Of a DNA stretch of 64,000 nucleotides, positions 55,153 to 63,071 are shown piece by piece (position 1 is the first letter of the stretch; each line of letters opens with the position of its first letter). The stretch lies in contig NZ_CP046115.1 in NCBI RefSeq assembly GCF_009707385.1, forward strand, positions 3,720,001 to 3,784,000, read 5' to 3'. This stretch comes from Klebsiella oxytoca (GTDB taxonomy: Bacteria > Pseudomonadota > Gammaproteobacteria > Enterobacterales > Enterobacteriaceae). Made by a program: the position numbers and the translations under genes. The notes beneath the pieces were generated by a model. It was not told the origin of the DNA and ran no database searches. It was given only the letters and a program-made list of their open reading frames with translations.

Positions 55153-56070
55153 ATGGAATTACTATTTTTGGGGACATCCGCTGGCGTGCCTACCCGTACG
55201 CGTAATATGACGTCGATAGTGCTGAATTTGCAACAGCCAACAATGTCTGAGATGTGGCTGTTCGACTGTGGGGAAGGAACCCAGCATCAATTTTTACGTA
55301 CCCCTTATCATCCCGGCAAACTGAATAAGATTTTTATCACTCATTTACATGGCGATCATCTGTTCGGTCTTCCCGGCCTACTGTGCAGCCGCTCGATGCA
55401 GGGTAATTCTCTGCCGCTGACGCTTTACGGGCCTAAAGGATTAAGAGAGTTTGTCGAAACCGCACTGCGCCTTAGCGGTTCCTGGACCGATTATCCGCTG
55501 ACTATCGTTGAAGTCGAACCGGGTCTGGTGTTTGATGAAGCGGGTTTCCGGGTCACCGCCTGGCCGTTAAACCATCCGGTTGAGTGCTACGGCTATCGTA
55601 TCGAACAGCATGATAAACCCGGAACTCTGGATGCCGCTCAGCTTATCGCCGACGGCGTGCCTTCTGGTCCGGTGTTCCACCGCCTGAAACAGGGATTAAC
55701 GGTTGAGCTGGAGGATGGCCGAATCATTGACGGCAGCAGCTATCTTGGCCCATCAACGCCGGGTAAAAAGCTGGCTATTTTCGGCGATACCGCCCCCTGT
55801 CCCGAGGCGCTGGAGCTGGCGCGCGGTGTAGATGTCATGGTTCACGAGGTGACGCTCGAACAGGCGATGGCGGAAAAGGCCAACAGCCGCGGGCATTCAT
55901 CCAGCCAGCAAACGGCGACGTTAGCGGAGAACGCCCGCGTCGGTACGCTTATCGCCACTCACTTTAGCTCTCGCTATGATGCCGAGGGCTGTCGGCGCCT
56001 GTTGGCCGAGTGCCGGGAGATATTTCCCTCCACGGTGCTGGCGGAAGATTTCCTGGTTTATACGGTGTAA
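55153..56070 (+). CDS. rbn: RNase BN/RNase Z (ElaC)
   Basis: 305 residues, the E. coli length. Metallo-beta-lactamase fold: zinc motif [15 protein letters not shown], later [13 protein letters not shown] and [12 protein letters not shown]. It processes tRNA 3' ends lacking CCA and has exo- and endoribonuclease activity. Monocistronic, converging with a recombinase gene; CGCGGC/GCCGCG pair at 56083-56105 after the stop. It marks the left border of the fimbrial insertion. Confidence 0.97.
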
Positions 56071-56118
56071 AAAAGAACGTAACGCGGCGGATAAAATAAG
56101 CCGCGATTACGCCCGCAA

Positions 56119-56649
56119 TTACTCCTCAACAGAACTGTTATAACGCAGAATCGATTTTACATTGCGATAGCCCAGATAATCCTGGATAGTGTCGTGGTCA
56201 ATGCCTTTTTTACCCAGCTCATAACCGCAAGCGTGGCGCAACATTCGCGGATGAATGTTTTGCTTTAATTTCGCCAGCTCACAGCATTCACGAATAATTT
56301 GATAGAAACGCTGGCGGGTCATTTTATTTCCCCGCGAGGAGATAAACAGCAGATCGTTACGGGCCGGATAACACTCTCTGGCCAGCAGCCAGCGCTGCAG
56401 TGAGATAACCTCCTTCGGCTGCAAAGGGTGATAACCCGAGACACCGTGACGCGCCCGGCGAATATAAATACGTCTTCCCGACAGGTCGATATCCCGTAAA
56501 GTTAACGCCGTTATTTCATTAATTCGGCAGCCGTGCAGAAAGCACATTTGAATCATGCAGCTGTTTCTTTCCGGATGGGCACAATAGCGTGCGGCCAGCA
56601 CCAGCCGCTCAACGTCTTTCAGGCTCAGATATTCCCTCTCTTCCTGCAT
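56119..56649 (-). CDS. FimB/FimE-type tyrosine recombinase with altered active site
   Basis: 176 residues, a minimal catalytic-domain recombinase like FimB and FimE. Arg42 (LHGCRINEI), Arg138 (MLRHACG) and nucleophile Tyr170 (ILRYNSS) are kept. The His of the H-x-x-R motif is Arg (HPRMLRH, Arg135), and the His of the GHRN motif is Tyr (GYRN, Tyr161). The upstream paralogue at 62520-63071 keeps both. The gene is last in the fimbrial operon, 34 bp after the minor pilin, with AAGGA before its ATG. It may invert the switch poorly, bind it without cutting, or act on another site. Reading frame is intact. Confidence 0.88.
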   Translation of the reverse strand: MQEEREYLSLKDVERLVLAARYCAHPERNSCMIQMCFLHGCRINEITALTLRDIDLSGRRIYIRRARHGVSGYHPLQPKEVISLQRWLLARECYPARNDLLFISSRGNKMTRQRFYQIIRECCELAKLKQNIHPRMLRHACGYELGKKGIDHDTIQDYLGYRNVKSILRYNSSVEE

Positions 56650-56683
56650 ACGTCATTCCTTTTCATCCATGTAGCGAATAAGG

Positions 56684-57193
56684 TCATTGATAGGTAAACG
56701 TCAGCTGTACCACCGACGCAAAGTTACCCGCCGTCGTCCCTCCGTGAGTTGAATATAAACGCGCGGCCAGAGGGAACACACCCTTTTTGCTACTGTTGTT
56801 AATCGTAATCGTCATCTGGTCCTGATTTTTGTAGGTAGTAGAATGATCGCTATTGGTTATTTGCAGCGCGATATGCTGCGCCGCATCGCTGGCCGCCATA
56901 TTGGCGAAATGCGTTGAATCCTCGCTATCAGTGACGCCATCGAATTTCACCGTCGCTTTGCTCGTTCCTGCCGGACAGTTTTCAACATTTAAACTAAACG
57001 TTTTCCACTCCGAGGCGTTTCCGGCCGCTTGCAAATTAGCTTTTACCAGCGTGCCGAAATCGACCTCCTGATATTGGGTATCAGTACTTACATCGCAGGG
57101 CAGAAAATAAATATTCCCTTTTACATTTAAAGGCACTCCGCTCCAGGATGAAAAAACGGGCAGTAATAATACCATCCACAGTGCTTTTCTCAT
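56684..57193 (-). CDS. Minor fimbrial subunit
   Basis: 169 residues with a signal peptide (MRKALWMVLLLPVFSSWSG). The pilin fold is shown by the disulfide pair Cys33 (FLPCDVST) and Cys in VENCPAGTSKATVKFDG, and by the C-terminal beta-zipper ending VVQLTFTYQ. It follows the adhesin gene by 12 bp, the place of LpfE in lpf operons, and is probably an adaptor or terminator of the fibre. The exact role (tip adaptor or base anchor) cannot be read from sequence. Confidence 0.85.
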   Translation of the reverse strand: MRKALWMVLLLPVFSSWSGVPLNVKGNIYFLPCDVSTDTQYQEVDFGTLVKANLQAAGNASEWKTFSLNVENCPAGTSKATVKFDGVTDSEDSTHFANMAASDAAQHIALQITNSDHSTTYKNQDQMTITINNSSKKGVFPLAARLYSTHGGTTAGNFASVVQLTFTYQ

Positions 57194-57205
57194 TATTTAC
57201 TCCTG

Positions 57206-58240
57206 TTATTCAATTTCTGCCTGAATGGTTGCCGTAGCGGTAAATCCACCGCCGGTAGGTAAATTACCGGTGGTATTTATCGGATAGATTTTCATGGTCG
57301 TATCTCCGGTCTGAGTCGAGTAGTTCAGATTCACCGGAAGCAGCCCCGAAAGGACTGGAATTTTAACACCAGTTATATTTTCAATGCGCACTGCAATATC
57401 GTTATTGGTCGTTGCCAGAGCGGTACCATCATGTATATCTTTTGTTCCCTGAAAAGAGAGCGAGATTTTTACCCCTGCGGAGATATTTGTACAGGCCACG
57501 GTCATATTTACCACATGTGGGGTAAAGCCCGTTGGCATCTGATTGATAGTTTTAAAGTCATTGCCAGCAATGTCACCAAAATTAATATTAATCGGCTGAC
57601 CCGAATTTATTTCACAGGACTGAGGTACCGTTACCGACCCGCTCATTGAGATCTGTGTCAGAGGAGTACCGCTGTAGCTTCCCGTTTTCCGCGTCCCGTA
57701 GACATTAAGGATTATCGTCGGAGGGATCATCACCTGACCGACGAATGGCCGGGTAAAATAGAGTGAAATATACCCTTTTGACCCCGTATTAAAAATGGTA
57801 CCGCCGGTATTACAGGCATAACCCTGGTTATTTTGGTTGCTCTTATCATGGATTGGCGTAGGAATATAGTCATTCACGCCTCCGGCAATATATAGCTCGC
57901 TGGCAATCTCCAGATATTTATTAAGCTGGTAAAAATTCAATCCGCTGCGCGTTTGTGTCGCAACCAGCCCGGGGATCGTGGCTTTAAAATAGGTTACGCC
58001 ACTGGCGCTGTCACAATCGCACTTCGCCTGATAGGTTCCCCCGGTATTCCACTGGTACAAACGATTAAACTCCATCCCGGCCTGGTTTTGTGCCGGGTTA
58101 GTAAAGGTTTCTATAAATGAAAAACTGTCCTGAAAAGGAGTACCGCTGTTATTCTGGCACCATCCGGTGGCGGCCAGCGCCTGTACTGGCATGACCAGCG
58201 CCATTAGGCCTGCTACTATTCCCCATGAAAATCGTTTCAT
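57206..58240 (-). CDS. Fimbrial tip adhesin-like protein
   Basis: 344 residues: signal peptide to about residue 23, an N-terminal domain of about 180 residues, then a C-terminal pilin domain beginning near SGSVTVPQSCEINSGQPI and ending GFTATATIQAEIE. The N-terminal domain has four cysteines (WCQNN, CDCD, YACNTG), suggesting two disulfides, and lies where FimH and LpfD carry the lectin domain. Length and position (between usher and minor pilin) fit LpfD-type adhesins. Ligand unknown. Confidence 0.85.
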   Translation of the reverse strand: MKRFSWGIVAGLMALVMPVQALAATGWCQNNSGTPFQDSFSFIETFTNPAQNQAGMEFNRLYQWNTGGTYQAKCDCDSASGVTYFKATIPGLVATQTRSGLNFYQLNKYLEIASELYIAGGVNDYIPTPIHDKSNQNNQGYACNTGGTIFNTGSKGYISLYFTRPFVGQVMIPPTIILNVYGTRKTGSYSGTPLTQISMSGSVTVPQSCEINSGQPININFGDIAGNDFKTINQMPTGFTPHVVNMTVACTNISAGVKISLSFQGTKDIHDGTALATTNNDIAVRIENITGVKIPVLSGLLPVNLNYSTQTGDTTMKIYPINTTGNLPTGGGFTATATIQAEIE

Positions 58241-58259: not shown

Positions 58260-60809
58260 TTAACGGCATAGCCCCTGGGCTACAATAATCCCGGTGAGGG
58301 TTTTGCCTGACGGCAGCGCATACTGAATTTGACAGCGCTCTTGCGCCCCCGAGCCCCATTTAGCATTGAGTACGCCGCTCGATCCCAGACCGGTTAAATA
58401 GACCTGCCCGCCGTCGCCAACGATAAATGCCTGCTCTGACGTAGCGGCTTCCGAATCGCTGACCACCGCGCCGAAAGGCACTGGCTGACCATCGGCCCGA
58501 CGCATCGTCATCAACACCCGACTACCGACGCTGGTGATGTAACTTGCGCGCACTACCGCTCCGCGGGTGGGCACGACAGTCTGGGTTGTTAACTCAAGGT
58601 CAACCTCATCCGGCATCGTGCTGGTATCAAGGGTCAGCGTATTCTTACGATACGGCGAGGTATAGGGCACAACGGCGTAGCCACGCCAGTCGGTCCTGAC
58701 GCCGGTTTGGTTGCTAACGCCAACGCCCGAAGCGCCCGGCGCTTTTATTAATGCCAGCGTTTCGCCAAAAGGCTGCCCCAGCGTCAGGCCATTTTCATGC
58801 GCCAGCACTCCACCGCGCAGGGCATAGTTCAGACGATGACTATACCTATCATGGCTGTAGCCGCCGGTAAGTTCCGCATAGGTTGCCCGCCAGTCGCCAT
58901 TAATACTGCCGCTCTCCCCTCTTCCCTGGCTGGCATATCCTTCCTGTACGCTCCAGCTCAGGTTATTACGCTCCAGCAAAGTACCGGAGAGACCCAGATT
59001 ATTGCTGGTTGAGCCATTTTTACTGCTGTTGAGGGAGTAGCTGGCATAGACCGGTTTTGGTAGCCATTCTCCCAGAGGAACGCTGATGCTCAGCGCGAAC
59101 AGATGATCTTCGTCATTACGCTCGCCGCTATTCTGGTCGGTCGTATTGCGGTTATAGCTGTAATTCATGCTATAGCTGATACCGCGCCAGCTGTTGTTAT
59201 ATCCCACCCCGACGGATTCCATCGAGCGTCCGGTGCTCCAGTAGTCTTCACGGATATAGCTCAACGACAGCGATCCCATTTCTTCGCCAAGGCTCTGGCT
59301 GAGCGTCACTTCCCCCCGGTTACGCCGCCGCTCAATGGAAGGGGTATAGCTATCATCACGATAGGTATCCAGCACCTCCTGCATATCCCAGTAGCCGCTG
59401 GTCGCGTAACGATATCCCGCAAGGGCAACGTTTGTTCCCAGACCCGGCAGATCCTTGCTGTAACGGACCCGAACCGACTGCCCGCTCTCTTTATCTTGAT
59501 CCTGGCGGTTCGACCAGGCCTGGGTGACATCCGTTGATACCGCGCCAAATTCCCCGAGATTTTTCCCCATTCCCAGCGCCAGCGCCTGATATTTGCTGCT
59601 AAATTGACCACCGCCATAGAGGGTTATTCCCCAGGGGAGACCGTAGATTGCCGTCGCCTGAGTGAGCGGTGTTTCATCAATACTATTGTCGTAGGCGCGG
59701 TAGACACCGGAGGTCACGCTATATTTCAGACGCCCCTCACGCTGCAGAACAGGGAGCGATGCATAAGGCACGATCAGGTTCTGTTCGCTGCCATCGGATT
59801 CCTTAATGGTGACGGATAAATCGCCCGAGCCGCCGGTTGGATACATATCGGTGATTTCAAAAGCGCCTGGAGAGACATAGGTCTGGTAAATCTCATAGCC
59901 ATTTTGACGGATAATGACCTGGGCATTAGTCCGCGCGATCCCACGAACGACCGGCGCATAGCCGCGCAGGCTTTCCGGCAGCATATCGTCGTCGGAAGCC
60001 AGCATCGCGCCGCGGAAAGGGATGCCTTCGAAAACGTCAGCATCGGTACTGCTGTCGCCCAGCGTCATCACGCCCTGGAGCGCATTAATATTGCGCTGAG
60101 CGTAGGTATAAACCGTATCCCAGCTGTTACTTGACTCGCCTGCGCTGCTGCTGCGGTTCCAGGTTGTATAGTTGCGCAAACGCCACGGGCCAATATTGAT
60201 ACCGGGGCGCAGGTTAACGTATTGATTGTCGCTGTCCGCTATATCGTTCTTACGCGACCAGTTATTAGCGCCGCTAAAAGAGTAGTTCAACAGAAGAGCC
60301 GTAATTCCGTCATCCCATAGCTTCGGGTCAACCCAGCCCCGGGCTGCGCTGGAAACCGCCGCCTGGGGGAAGCTTAATAACAGGCGCTGCTGGCTAAAAC
60401 GGAAGTCAGCCTTTGCCTGGGGTATAACGCCAAAATCCGCGCATTCCGCCGATTTACGGCCTAATTCTGGGAACTGCTTGACGCGCACGCCCCATTCGGC
60501 AAGCTCCTCGACCTTCAGGCAAGGCTGCAATACCTCTGCTCCCGGCGCGCGGCCTGGCTTGAAAACGACGTCACGGGTATCCATAAAGACATTATTGAGG
60601 TAAATATCAACCCGGTAGGTGCCCGGCTGCTGCCCACCCACCTGTTCATAAGCCGATAGATCCCTGACGCCGGTTTGTGGGCCATCCATTTCCAATAATG
60701 CCGGGTTAAACACATCGCGAGCCAGCGCATCATCACTCCACGGAATCAAGGCAACGGCCAGAGCCCCGGCTATCCGGTTAAGCCGCCATTTGTTATGATT
60801 ATTTTGCAT
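58260..60809 (-). CDS. Fimbrial usher, outer-membrane assembly platform
   Basis: 849 residues with a signal peptide ending DALA. Domain order is that of PapC/FimD: N-terminal chaperone-binding domain (about 31-150, FNPALLEMDG, GTYRVDIYLNN), 24-strand barrel interrupted by the plug (about 225-320), and two C-terminal domains, with CQIQYAL and GLCR giving the terminal cysteine pair. It recruits chaperone-subunit complexes and secretes the growing fibre. Intact, in the middle of the operon. Confidence 0.95.
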   Translation of the reverse strand: MQNNHNKWRLNRIAGALAVALIPWSDDALARDVFNPALLEMDGPQTGVRDLSAYEQVGGQQPGTYRVDIYLNNVFMDTRDVVFKPGRAPGAEVLQPCLKVEELAEWGVRVKQFPELGRKSAECADFGVIPQAKADFRFSQQRLLLSFPQAAVSSAARGWVDPKLWDDGITALLLNYSFSGANNWSRKNDIADSDNQYVNLRPGINIGPWRLRNYTTWNRSSSAGESSNSWDTVYTYAQRNINALQGVMTLGDSSTDADVFEGIPFRGAMLASDDDMLPESLRGYAPVVRGIARTNAQVIIRQNGYEIYQTYVSPGAFEITDMYPTGGSGDLSVTIKESDGSEQNLIVPYASLPVLQREGRLKYSVTSGVYRAYDNSIDETPLTQATAIYGLPWGITLYGGGQFSSKYQALALGMGKNLGEFGAVSTDVTQAWSNRQDQDKESGQSVRVRYSKDLPGLGTNVALAGYRYATSGYWDMQEVLDTYRDDSYTPSIERRRNRGEVTLSQSLGEEMGSLSLSYIREDYWSTGRSMESVGVGYNNSWRGISYSMNYSYNRNTTDQNSGERNDEDHLFALSISVPLGEWLPKPVYASYSLNSSKNGSTSNNLGLSGTLLERNNLSWSVQEGYASQGRGESGSINGDWRATYAELTGGYSHDRYSHRLNYALRGGVLAHENGLTLGQPFGETLALIKAPGASGVGVSNQTGVRTDWRGYAVVPYTSPYRKNTLTLDTSTMPDEVDLELTTQTVVPTRGAVVRASYITSVGSRVLMTMRRADGQPVPFGAVVSDSEAATSEQAFIVGDGGQVYLTGLGSSGVLNAKWGSGAQERCQIQYALPSGKTLTGIIVAQGLCR

Positions 60810-60839: not shown

Positions 60840-61502
60840 TTACAAATTTGCGCTGTGCTGCGCGCCAATACCGCCGTAGTCATTGATCAGTTTCCAGCGC
60901 AATGATCCTGTGCTGCCGCGCGGCAGTTCAAAGCGCGCCGTCGCGCCAGGCGCCACCCAATTGGCCTCTTTAACTTCTGCACCACCGATTTTCACCTCGG
61001 CAAAATTCATATAAAACGCGGTAGGATTTGTGACCTGTAACGTATTGCCGCTGCGCGTCCAGCGAAGCTGTTCCGTCACCATTTCCGGCGTTCCCTGAAT
61101 GGATTTCGGCCGATAAATTAATTTGATGCGGGTTTTAATCGCGATCTGTAGCGTATTCGCGCCAGCTTTAGCCTGTGAGGATGGGATCGCTTTAATATTC
61201 ATCCAGAACATGCTTTCTTTGTTTTCCGGCAATCCGCCGCTATAAATCACCCGCAAACGGGTCTGCTGCTCGCCTTCCAGACGGAATAAAGGCGGCGTTA
61301 ACAAAAAGGGAGAAGATCCGTTATTCGCCTCAACCCAGCTTTGAATGAGATAGGGCGTGGCATCATTATTAGTCACGCTCAGAGAGGACTCTTTTTTGCC
61401 GCCGGGATAAATCAGGCGAGTGCCGCCGGTGACAACGCCCGCTTGTGCGGCTGCGCCTACCAGCAGCCATCCAGCCATCAGCAATTTCAGGTATGGTTTC
61501 AT
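60840..61502 (-). CDS. Periplasmic fimbrial chaperone (FGS type)
   Basis: 220 residues with a signal peptide cleaved after AQA. The conserved subunit-binding residues appear as Arg29 (TGGTRLIYP, position 8 of the mature protein) and Lys in KTRIKLIYRP; NPTAFYMNF is the usual linker and start of domain 2. The short F1-G1 loop (FRLEGEQQTRLRVIYSGG) marks the FGS subfamily. It donates its G1 strand to pilins and delivers them to the usher. Confidence 0.94.
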   Translation of the reverse strand: MKPYLKLLMAGWLLVGAAAQAGVVTGGTRLIYPGGKKESSLSVTNNDATPYLIQSWVEANNGSSPFLLTPPLFRLEGEQQTRLRVIYSGGLPENKESMFWMNIKAIPSSQAKAGANTLQIAIKTRIKLIYRPKSIQGTPEMVTEQLRWTRSGNTLQVTNPTAFYMNFAEVKIGGAEVKEANWVAPGATARFELPRGSTGSLRWKLINDYGGIGAQHSANL

Positions 61503-61565: not shown

Positions 61566-62093
61566 TCAGTTGTAGCTGATAGTGAAGTTAGCGGTACCGT
61601 TAGCTTTACCGGCCACAACGGTGGTATCGGTCTGGATATAACGAACGCGGAACGGCAGATCGATATCGCCGGTAGATGGGATGGTCAGGCTGGTAGAACG
61701 GGTGAACAGCGGCAGGGTACTGTTAGTGCTGCCATCAACCAGCTGCAGAGCCACGCCTGTAGCGACATTAGGTTCTGCGGTCAGTTGCAGTTTGCTATTG
61801 TCGCCGCCAACGTTAGTGCCGGAGAACAGTACCGATGCTTTAGTAACCGTAGTCGGGCAGTTTTTCAGTTGGATATCAAAACCTTGCTCAGCCGCGGTAG
61901 AACCGGTACCGGTAAACGCCGTCTTGGCGATCTGCCCCATTTGGACTTCCAGCGGGTTAGACAGGTCGTTAACCACGTCACAGCCCGCATCAATGATGTC
62001 GCCAATAAACTTCACCTGACCATCATCTGCCAGCGCAGCACCAGAGAATGTCGCGCAACCGGCAACAACAGCAGCAAGTAATGTTTTTTTCAT
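61566..62093 (-). CDS. Major fimbrial subunit (Fim/Lpf-type pilin)
   Basis: 175 residues. Signal peptide MKKTLLAAVVAGCATFSGAALA, donor-strand region VKFIGDIIDAGCDV, disulfide Cys38-Cys79 (AGCDVV, KNCPTTV), MGQIAKTAFTGTGSTAAEQG as in LpfA/FimA, and C-terminal beta-zipper NGTANFTISYN with penultimate Tyr. AAGGA precedes the ATG. It forms the rod of the fimbria. Its promoter is expected from the invertible element that ends 132 bp upstream. Confidence 0.93.
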   Translation of the reverse strand: MKKTLLAAVVAGCATFSGAALADDGQVKFIGDIIDAGCDVVNDLSNPLEVQMGQIAKTAFTGTGSTAAEQGFDIQLKNCPTTVTKASVLFSGTNVGGDNSKLQLTAEPNVATGVALQLVDGSTNSTLPLFTRSTSLTIPSTGDIDLPFRVRYIQTDTTVVAGKANGTANFTISYN

Positions 62094-62224
62094 GATTTAT
62101 CCTTTTCAATGCAGTCAATGCATTAACTTAAAAGCGCAATACCGTGCGCATCCTTTTATTTACGTTTGATATTAATAACGAAACAAAACATTGACCCATG
62201 AAATGGATATAATATTTTGAAGTG

Positions 62225-62245
62225 GTCATTTTGTATCAATTTGAC
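62225..62245 (+). repeat. Left inverted repeat of the switch (IRL)
   Basis: GTCA-TTTTGTATCAATT-TGAC. It sits within a larger perfect palindrome with 10-bp arms GAAGTGGTCA (62219-62228) and TGACCACTTC (62242-62251), which may be the two recombinase-binding half-sites. Confidence 0.85.
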
Positions 62246-62269
62246 CACTTCAATTAATTAAAATATAAA
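62241..62269 (+). promoter_or_regulatory. Promoter-like sequence P2 at the left end of the switch
   Basis: TTGACC (62241-62246), a 17-bp spacer and TATAAA (62264-62269), five of six matches in each hexamer. The -35 overlaps the left repeat. It reads inward on the plus strand, away from the pilin gene in this orientation. Confidence 0.55.
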
Positions 62270-62457
62270 TTGCCAGGGAAGGCGTTTGTAATTTTATATT
62301 TACCAGAAGAAAGCCTAATAAACATGATAAAAAACTGAGGAGCGCGACGTGAAACAAATCATACATAAAACAAATTTAAACAATGCAAAAAATAAATTTC
62401 ACTCATATATAATATAACAACATGAAAAACATAACGAAAAATATTGTTAACCCTAAA

Positions 62458-62486
62458 TTGACATTGTTACCGCCTGTAGATAGCAT
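62458..62486 (+). promoter_or_regulatory. Promoter-like sequence P1 at the right end of the switch
   Basis: Perfect TTGACA (62458-62463), a 17-bp spacer and TAGCAT (62481-62486; four of six). Transcription would start at the right repeat and read outward, as the fimA promoter of E. coli does at its repeat. After inversion it would lie at 62250-62278 facing the pilin ATG about 150 bp away. Confidence 0.6.
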
Positions 62487-62490
62487 AGGA

Positions 62491-62511
62491 GTCAGTTTGA
62501 TACAAAATGAC
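62491..62511 (-). repeat. Right inverted repeat of the switch (IRR)
   Basis: GTCA-GTTTGATACAAAA-TGAC. Its reverse complement matches the left repeat at 19 of 21 positions; the two differences are adjacent, in the spacer. Nine bases separate it from the recombinase gene's stop end. Confidence 0.85.
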
Positions 62512-62519
62512 TATTTCAT

Positions 62520-63071
62520 TTACCAAACCTCCCTGAATCTCGCATCGTTACTGGCGGTATATATGACCGTATGCTGAATATTTCTGTGGCCAAGAAAATC
62601 CTGAATCAATCGCGTATCGACGCCGTTATTTGCCAACGCAAAGCCGCAGGCATGGCGCAGCATATGCGGATGGGCGCTGATCTCCAGCTGCGCATCGCGG
62701 CTAAGGTTCTGCATCATTTGATATATACGCTGCCTCGATAAAGGCTGACCATTACGCGATAAAAAAAACCATTCAGAATTATTCCCTGGATAATCCTTAC
62801 GTACTCTCAGCCACTCGCTGAGGACCTTCTCCTCTTTTTTATAAACAGGATGAGTGGTGGAAAAACCATTTTTCAGTCGTCGAATATAAATAACCCCGCT
62901 TTGAATATCGATATCAGATAGCCGCCAGTGGCGAATTTCGCTGACCCGGCATCCATGATTAAAACACATCCATAATAAACAGGCATCGCGCTCCGGATTT
63001 GCCCCCCTCCTGGCCGCATCAACCAAACGCTGGACTTCCCCAACGGTTAAATGCTTACGCCTTGTTTTCAT
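62520..63071 (-). CDS. FimB/FimE-type tyrosine recombinase, complete active site
   Basis: 183 residues. The catalytic set is complete: Arg42 (NHGCRVSEI), His136 and Arg139 (HPHMLRHACG), His162 (LGHRNIQHT) and Tyr171 (VIYTASNDARF). It resembles FimB and FimE closely in the C-terminal half (TRLIQDFLGHRN). These enzymes invert the fim switch. The gene ends 8 bp from the right repeat and reads toward the switch, so its message could run into the pilin operon, and in the present orientation promoters P1 and P2 would produce RNA antisense to it. Confidence 0.93.
   Translation of the reverse strand: MKTRRKHLTVGEVQRLVDAARRGANPERDACLLWMCFNHGCRVSEIRHWRLSDIDIQSGVIYIRRLKNGFSTTHPVYKKEEKVLSEWLRVRKDYPGNNSEWFFLSRNGQPLSRQRIYQMMQNLSRDAQLEISAHPHMLRHACGFALANNGVDTRLIQDFLGHRNIQHTVIYTASNDARFREVW

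Follow-up and report, generated by a model that had tools for sequence, protein, structure and literature searches.

The window, by which we mean the whole stretch of 64,000 nucleotides analysed here, belongs to a host genome of 5.39 Mb in one contig. It contains a fimbrial region on the minus strand between two genes that we take, from their sequences, to be rbn (plus strand, about 55153-56070) and nuoN (minus strand, from 63272). Along the minus strand the order is RecA, an intergenic stretch of 426 bp, pilin, chaperone, usher, an adhesin-like gene, a FimG-like gene and RecB, where RecA and RecB are our names for the two recombinase-like genes at this locus only. The features are listed below.

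62520..63071, minus strand: RecA, a FimB/FimE-type tyrosine recombinase of 183 aa (PF00589), with a complete catalytic set
62491..62518, minus strand: predicted recombinase-side recombination site (right repeat; 62491-62511)
62458..62486, plus strand: sigma-70-type promoter match TTGACA-N17-TAGCAT, 10/12 of the consensus, pointing away from the pilin
62246..62490, no strand: predicted invertible segment, 245 bp
62218..62245, plus strand: predicted recombination site on the pilin side (left repeat, its 21-bp core part at 62225-62245)
61566..62093, minus strand: major pilin-like subunit, encoded first in the operon (PF00419)
60840..61502, minus strand: periplasmic chaperone (PF00345, PF02753)
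58260..60809, minus strand: outer membrane usher (PF00577, PF13954, PF13953)
57206..58240, minus strand: adhesin-like tip subunit of 344 aa (PF00419 in the C-terminal half)
56684..57193, minus strand: minor subunit, FimG-like (PF00419)
56119..56649, minus strand: RecB, a predicted pseudo-invertase of 176 aa, encoded last in the operon (PF00589, 6.5e-35)
56101..56118, minus strand: terminator-like hairpin directly 3' of RecB, not above chance

RecA scored 244.6 bits against the model NF007370 (tyrosine-type DNA invertase, cut-off 221), and together with the PF00589 match this confirmed the FimB/FimE-like recombinase gene that a first-pass annotation had placed next to the repeats. For the tip subunit the LpfD and FimH models both scored below their cut-offs, and the minor subunit reached 109.5 bits against the FimG model, under the cut-off of 220. 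RecB begins 34 bp past the FimG-like gene and AAGGA precedes its start codon. No terminator match was found on the operon strand between these two genes; the terminator scan of the stretch gave 2 matches against 1.5 ± 1.4 in shuffles.

The 21-bp repeats lie at 62225-62245 and, as the reverse complement, at 62491-62511. They are identical at 19/21 positions, 245 bp apart, and can be extended to 28 nt with 24/28 matching (62218-62245 and 62491-62518). The best inverted-repeat score of 62094-62519 was 18.0, a value reached by none of 300 dinucleotide shuffles (maximum 15.0), which confirmed the repeats as first described. The 5-bp inverted arms that had been noted round each core were also found (GGTCA...TGACC left, AGTCA...TGACT right), and the left site is additionally a dyad with 12-bp arms, TTGAAGTGGTCA...TGACCACTTCAA. 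This pilin-side dyad (62217-62253) is present in the orientation assigned below to OFF; inversion would part its 12-bp arms, and the strength of the site may therefore depend on phase.

When the window was searched with TTTTGTATCAAWTTGAC, allowing up to 3 mismatches, 3 matches were obtained, two of them the sites; 3 matches occurred in 0/100 shuffles. TTTTGTATCAANTTGAC with up to 2 mismatches matched at 2 places in the whole 5.39-Mb genome, the sites only. The same pattern read backwards as a control had 6 genome matches, and therefore the genome scan alone is not strong. Plasmid and E. coli collections returned similarity to the recombinase gene only, with no match covering 80% of the query. 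At fimS, one or more IHF sites assist inversion, as a supporting and not a defining feature. The strict IHF consensus WATCARNNNNTTR was absent from 62094-62545, though weak sites would escape this pattern.

The promoter match is the best of the stretch. It lies inside the segment, adjoins the right site and faces RecA; 6 promoter-type matches were counted in the region, against 3.5 ± 1.6 in shuffles. Because the match points away from the pilin, we infer that this genome is in the OFF phase. An inverted segment would bring the promoter to face the pilin, the ATG of which (62091-62093) is 131 bases from the 21-bp repeat, and from gene content and position the chaperone-usher operon appears to be the target of the switch. 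The stop codon of RecA starts at 62520, one base past the right arm, and because of this position the end of the RecA mRNA would differ by orientation. Transcription from the promoter in OFF would run into recA in the antisense direction. Comparable effects of orientation on mRNA end and antisense transcription are known for fimE.

To follow the segment among relatives we aligned 9 sequences, namely the window, Klebsiella L004-L009, Phytobacter L034 and Citrobacter L038. The left 21-mer was identical in 7/9 including the window, with two base differences each in L008 and L038. The right 11-bp core TTTTGTATCAA was unchanged in all nine, and L006 had one inner-arm difference. The -35 element was unchanged in 9/9 and the -10 element in 8/9 (TAACAT in Phytobacter L034). 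Unlike the sites and the promoter, the remaining sequence of the segment drifts among the nine; the repeats, the loss of which beside conserved flanks had been named as a refutation of the switch, are nearly unchanged in relatives. Among 20 genomes of the genus the full region was detected in 7, including that of the window, a part of it in G013, and none at the threshold in 12.

All 9 aligned intact copies, that is the window and 8 relatives, have the same orientation. This is also the orientation of L071 (G138), which resembles L034 and possibly comes from the same organism. In G013 (L010) the pilin and its flank are present, and the interval from the segment to nuoN contains no recombinase gene. 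The segment of G013 aligned to that of the window with a score of 97 in the inverted sense and 28 in the same sense; 0/500 shuffles reached 97 (maximum 53). Against the segments of the nine relatives the inverted sense scored higher in eight, and no preference was detected with L004 (31 same, 33 inverted). The G013 promoter, TTGACA-N17-TAGCAT, faces the pilin immediately after the left site. Since the G013 segment aligns inverted and its promoter is directed towards the pilin, this is evidence that the segment inverted during evolution, evidence between species and not within a strain. In the comparison of both orientations across related genomes, which had been proposed as a check, the inverted form was found between species, in G013, and 9/9 intact aligned copies are alike. 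The G013 copy is diverged, and its right repeat, inspected by eye, shows no more than a weak resemblance. As a separate observation, the G013 fimbrial operon (L010 1155-2376) is fixed in the ON-facing orientation, and a search of the G013 genome at E 1e-30 gave no match to a FimB-like protein.

The conserved sites and promoter, the adjacent recombinase and the inverted relative give good support to the original claim that the 245-bp segment is the phase switch of this cluster, a reading that we hold with high confidence.

The host genome also has a fim locus (L095) with FimB, FimE and fimS, and we compared the sites of the two switches centred on their cores. The left site agreed with the pilin-side fimS site at 16/21 positions, a score found at one of 128,030 window positions, the left site itself. 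The right site matched the recombinase-side fimS site at 14/21 (two positions score at least 14), and it also matches the pilin-side fimS site at 14. Against the fimS sites of an E. coli record the two sites scored 14/21 and 14/21. The letters common to fimS and this switch are those of the arms; the two part company in the four or five bases at the centre. GTCANTTNGNNNCAAACTG, drawn from both sites, had exact genome matches at two places, this switch and fimS; allowing 1 mismatch gave one further match, on the opposite strand and overlapping the same site, and the backward control gave 2.

Like fimS, the segment is short, intergenic and promoter-bearing, lies between recombinase gene(s) of the FimB/FimE type and a pilin gene, and in OFF would have its promoter adjoining the recombinase-side site. 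The site arms GTCA...CAAACTG and GTCAT...TTTGAC are shared, and, as in the fimS of the same genome, the inner arm is AACTG on the recombinase side and TTTGAC on the pilin side. The two switches differ in the site centre (TGTAT here, GGGGC in fimS), in segment length (245 bp here, about 300 in fim) and in the recombinases: here a single catalytically complete enzyme is encoded beside the switch, and another, altered, where the operon ends. They also serve different fimbriae at different places, here between nuoN and rbn.

In other Enterobacteriaceae, recombinases 61-68% identical to RecA adjoin repeats GTCA[T/C]TTTGAACTAAA or GTCATTTTGTACCAAA. This sister set consists of 14 loci picked by eye, and many other listed loci had no repeat or one of another kind. 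The sister repeats have the same arms and, again, different centres, which suggests a shared recognition of arms combined with a private centre. The first-pass annotation had seen no obvious sequence shared with fimS and had argued for a distinct recombinase specificity. The sites do match those of fimS at 16/21 and 14/21, and with the arms in common and mainly the centre different the argument for distinct specificity falls. Neither does the greater length of the repeats compared with fimS carry that argument, since hyxS of E. coli CFT073 has repeats of 16 bp, and ipuS of 7 bp, in the passages of PMC6083910 on these switches. Neighbouring switches in one genome would thus share recombinase-binding arms and be told apart by their centres, and private centres could prevent recombination between them.

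RecB, at the end of the operon, lies outside 62225..62511, the interval covered by the first-pass annotation, which did not mention it. It has a PF00589 match, but the invertase models score below their cut-offs. For the residue alignment we used the best 120 of 437 homologues, to which RecA and both Fim recombinases encoded in the host genome were added. Outside the RecB clade the catalytic R, K, H, R, H and Y were present in 117/117 aligned homologues, and in the C-terminal RF...W the R was present in 117/117 and the W in 114/117. RecB carries K67R, H136R and H162Y (RecA numbering), so that three of the six catalytic residues are replaced; both catalytic arginines and the tyrosine are retained, and the sequence stops before the C-terminal RF...W. 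The other full-length members of the clade among the matches listed (P0001, P0002) have the same residue pattern, and the partial sequences P0003-P0006 agree at the lysine position where readable. Identity within the clade is 81-90%, and others among the matches listed reach at most about 46%. In the predicted structure the fold is kept (pLDDT 86.5, pTM 0.83), with low confidence for the tyrosine and the C-terminal end.

RecB is open with the same substitutions in 7/7 Klebsiella genomes having the full switch, and among the 20 genomes of the genus it is confined to these seven; FimB/FimE-like proteins without RecB were found in the 12 other genus genomes. Its dN/dS was 0.02-0.05 in 10 pairs from five genomes with dS of 0.67-1.14, near saturation, and that of RecA was 0.01-0.05. 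The reading frame is interrupted in Phytobacter (L034 14433-14882, L116) and Citrobacter (L038 14416-14911), and because the switch and RecA look intact there, RecB is dispensable. Among 392 genomes of the family, few of which belong to the genus, a recB DNA match was obtained for the window's own genome and G138 only. No inverted repeats of at least 14 nt, as a site pair of RecB's own, were found in 55900-57400.

On balance we favour the explanation that RecA flips a fimS-type promoter and that RecB, encoded at the operon end, restrains this flipping in ON. RecA is predicted to recombine the two sites and to turn the promoter towards the pilin. In ON the promoter would drive the pilin, chaperone, usher and adhesin genes, followed by the minor subunit gene and RecB, presumably as one transcript. 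RecB may still bind the sites, alone or with RecA, and when bound there or mixed with RecA it would form unproductive complexes. These would stabilise the ON phase, so that RecB would serve as a memory or brake produced in that phase only. We consider it probable that RecB is a regulator of this switch acting without normal catalysis, because it is under selection, lacks the catalytic set and is encoded so as to be made only in ON. That it is specifically a brake is a more tentative proposal, and somewhat more speculative still is the idea of an operon encoding its own dead invertase, an ON-made paralogue that would occupy the recombination sites and give the switch a memory.

An ordinary fimS-like switch with RecB as a leftover duplicate without a role would agree with the loss of catalytic residues and with the broken copies in Phytobacter and Citrobacter. 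We regard this as unlikely because of the dN/dS values, and the frame open in 7/7 genomes and the identity within the clade are also unlike those of a decaying gene. The residues themselves bear on a related question, whether RecB is a working second invertase of unusual chemistry, for instance an ON-to-OFF enzyme made only in ON. In fim, FimE takes such a part, an ON-to-OFF negative feedback. Both catalytic arginines and the tyrosine are retained in RecB, and a few tyrosine recombinases are active despite variation at the second and third catalytic positions. In RecB, however, the C-terminal loss accompanies changes at three of the six positions, none of which is changed in any of the 117 other homologues, and the model has low confidence towards the tyrosine; because of the catalytic residues an active enzyme, too, is unlikely, and slightly more so than a leftover.

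RecB could also be a DNA-binding regulator that acts elsewhere, at fimS of the same genome or at another promoter. The arms shared with fimS in this genome would permit this, and E. coli invertases cross-act on distant switches according to passages of PMC6083910, but RecB is restricted to switch-bearing genomes, the same seven of 20 in the genus, and we find a role elsewhere improbable. Least probable is a frozen or regulatory dyad, with inversion of the segment lost in this lineage. Such a state would account for the shared orientation of all 9 aligned copies, yet reference assemblies commonly catch one phase, RecA is intact under purifying selection, the two sites stay alike, and an inverted relative exists in G013.

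Bias and stability of such switches are usually explained by two active recombinases of differing preference together with nucleoid proteins. If the favoured explanation, restraint of RecA by RecB, is true, a conserved altered recombinase encoded within the operon under control would add a third mechanism, a phase-dependent self-restraint by a pseudo-enzyme, and evolution would have fixed a dominant-negative recombinase to restrain DNA inversion.

To our knowledge no altered recombinase lies within the switched operon of Kpc, mrp, fot or mad. These are likewise small intergenic fimbrial promoter switches, which we compared by segment length: 302 bp for Kpc (KpcI) of K. pneumoniae, 251 bp for mrp of Proteus, 312 bp for fot (CS18) of E. 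coli and 257 bp for mad of Photorhabdus, as given in passages of a survey of DNA inversions (PMC5903667). In ipuS and hyxS, FimB-type recombinases also act on neighbouring promoter switches, and the arms of ipuS resemble those of fimS; the targets there are regulators and an autotransporter and not a chaperone-usher operon, and the recombinases, unlike RecB, are described with RHRY residues, for IpuA (passages of PMC6083910). For K. michiganensis Kd70 two recombinase genes are mentioned as possible regulators of fimbriae in a passage of PMC6054940. The locus does not occur in the passages of related papers on K. pneumoniae ushers (PMC4353729) and fim2 (PMC3419637). No description of it was recognised in full-text searches of the main text of open papers, and within this literature the switch still looks unreported, as it had first appeared. 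Nor did the passages covered describe an invertase with altered catalytic residues that is encoded in a fimbrial operon.

Among the sisters, L012, L072, L073, L075, L076, L078-L081, L085, L090 and L091 have, next to a recombinase gene, GTCA[T/C]TTTGAAC[T/C]AAA repeats with a spacing of about 270-290 bp. The alignment of the window segment with the sister segments was at noise level. In 18 rows compared, a strict promoter pattern was directed towards the recombinase in 4 (the window and orthologues) and towards the pilin in L080 and L085, and was absent in the rest. L085 was considered as an oppositely oriented sister, as its short inner flanks suggested inversion. It was not counted, because the best alignment above shuffles among 11 sisters (44 against 42, with L079) was in the same orientation.

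A second fimbrial cluster of Phytobacter (L039 6301-8880, L089) contains two complete recombinases and repeats GTCATTTTGTACCAAA[C/T]TGA, and is likely another promoter switch of the same site family. Morganella psychrotolerans and another genome (L060 8569-8912, L082 1670-2011) have in common the repeats AATAAACCAAA[A/G]TGT, a different site family, which adjoin a recombinase 57-58% identical to RecA.
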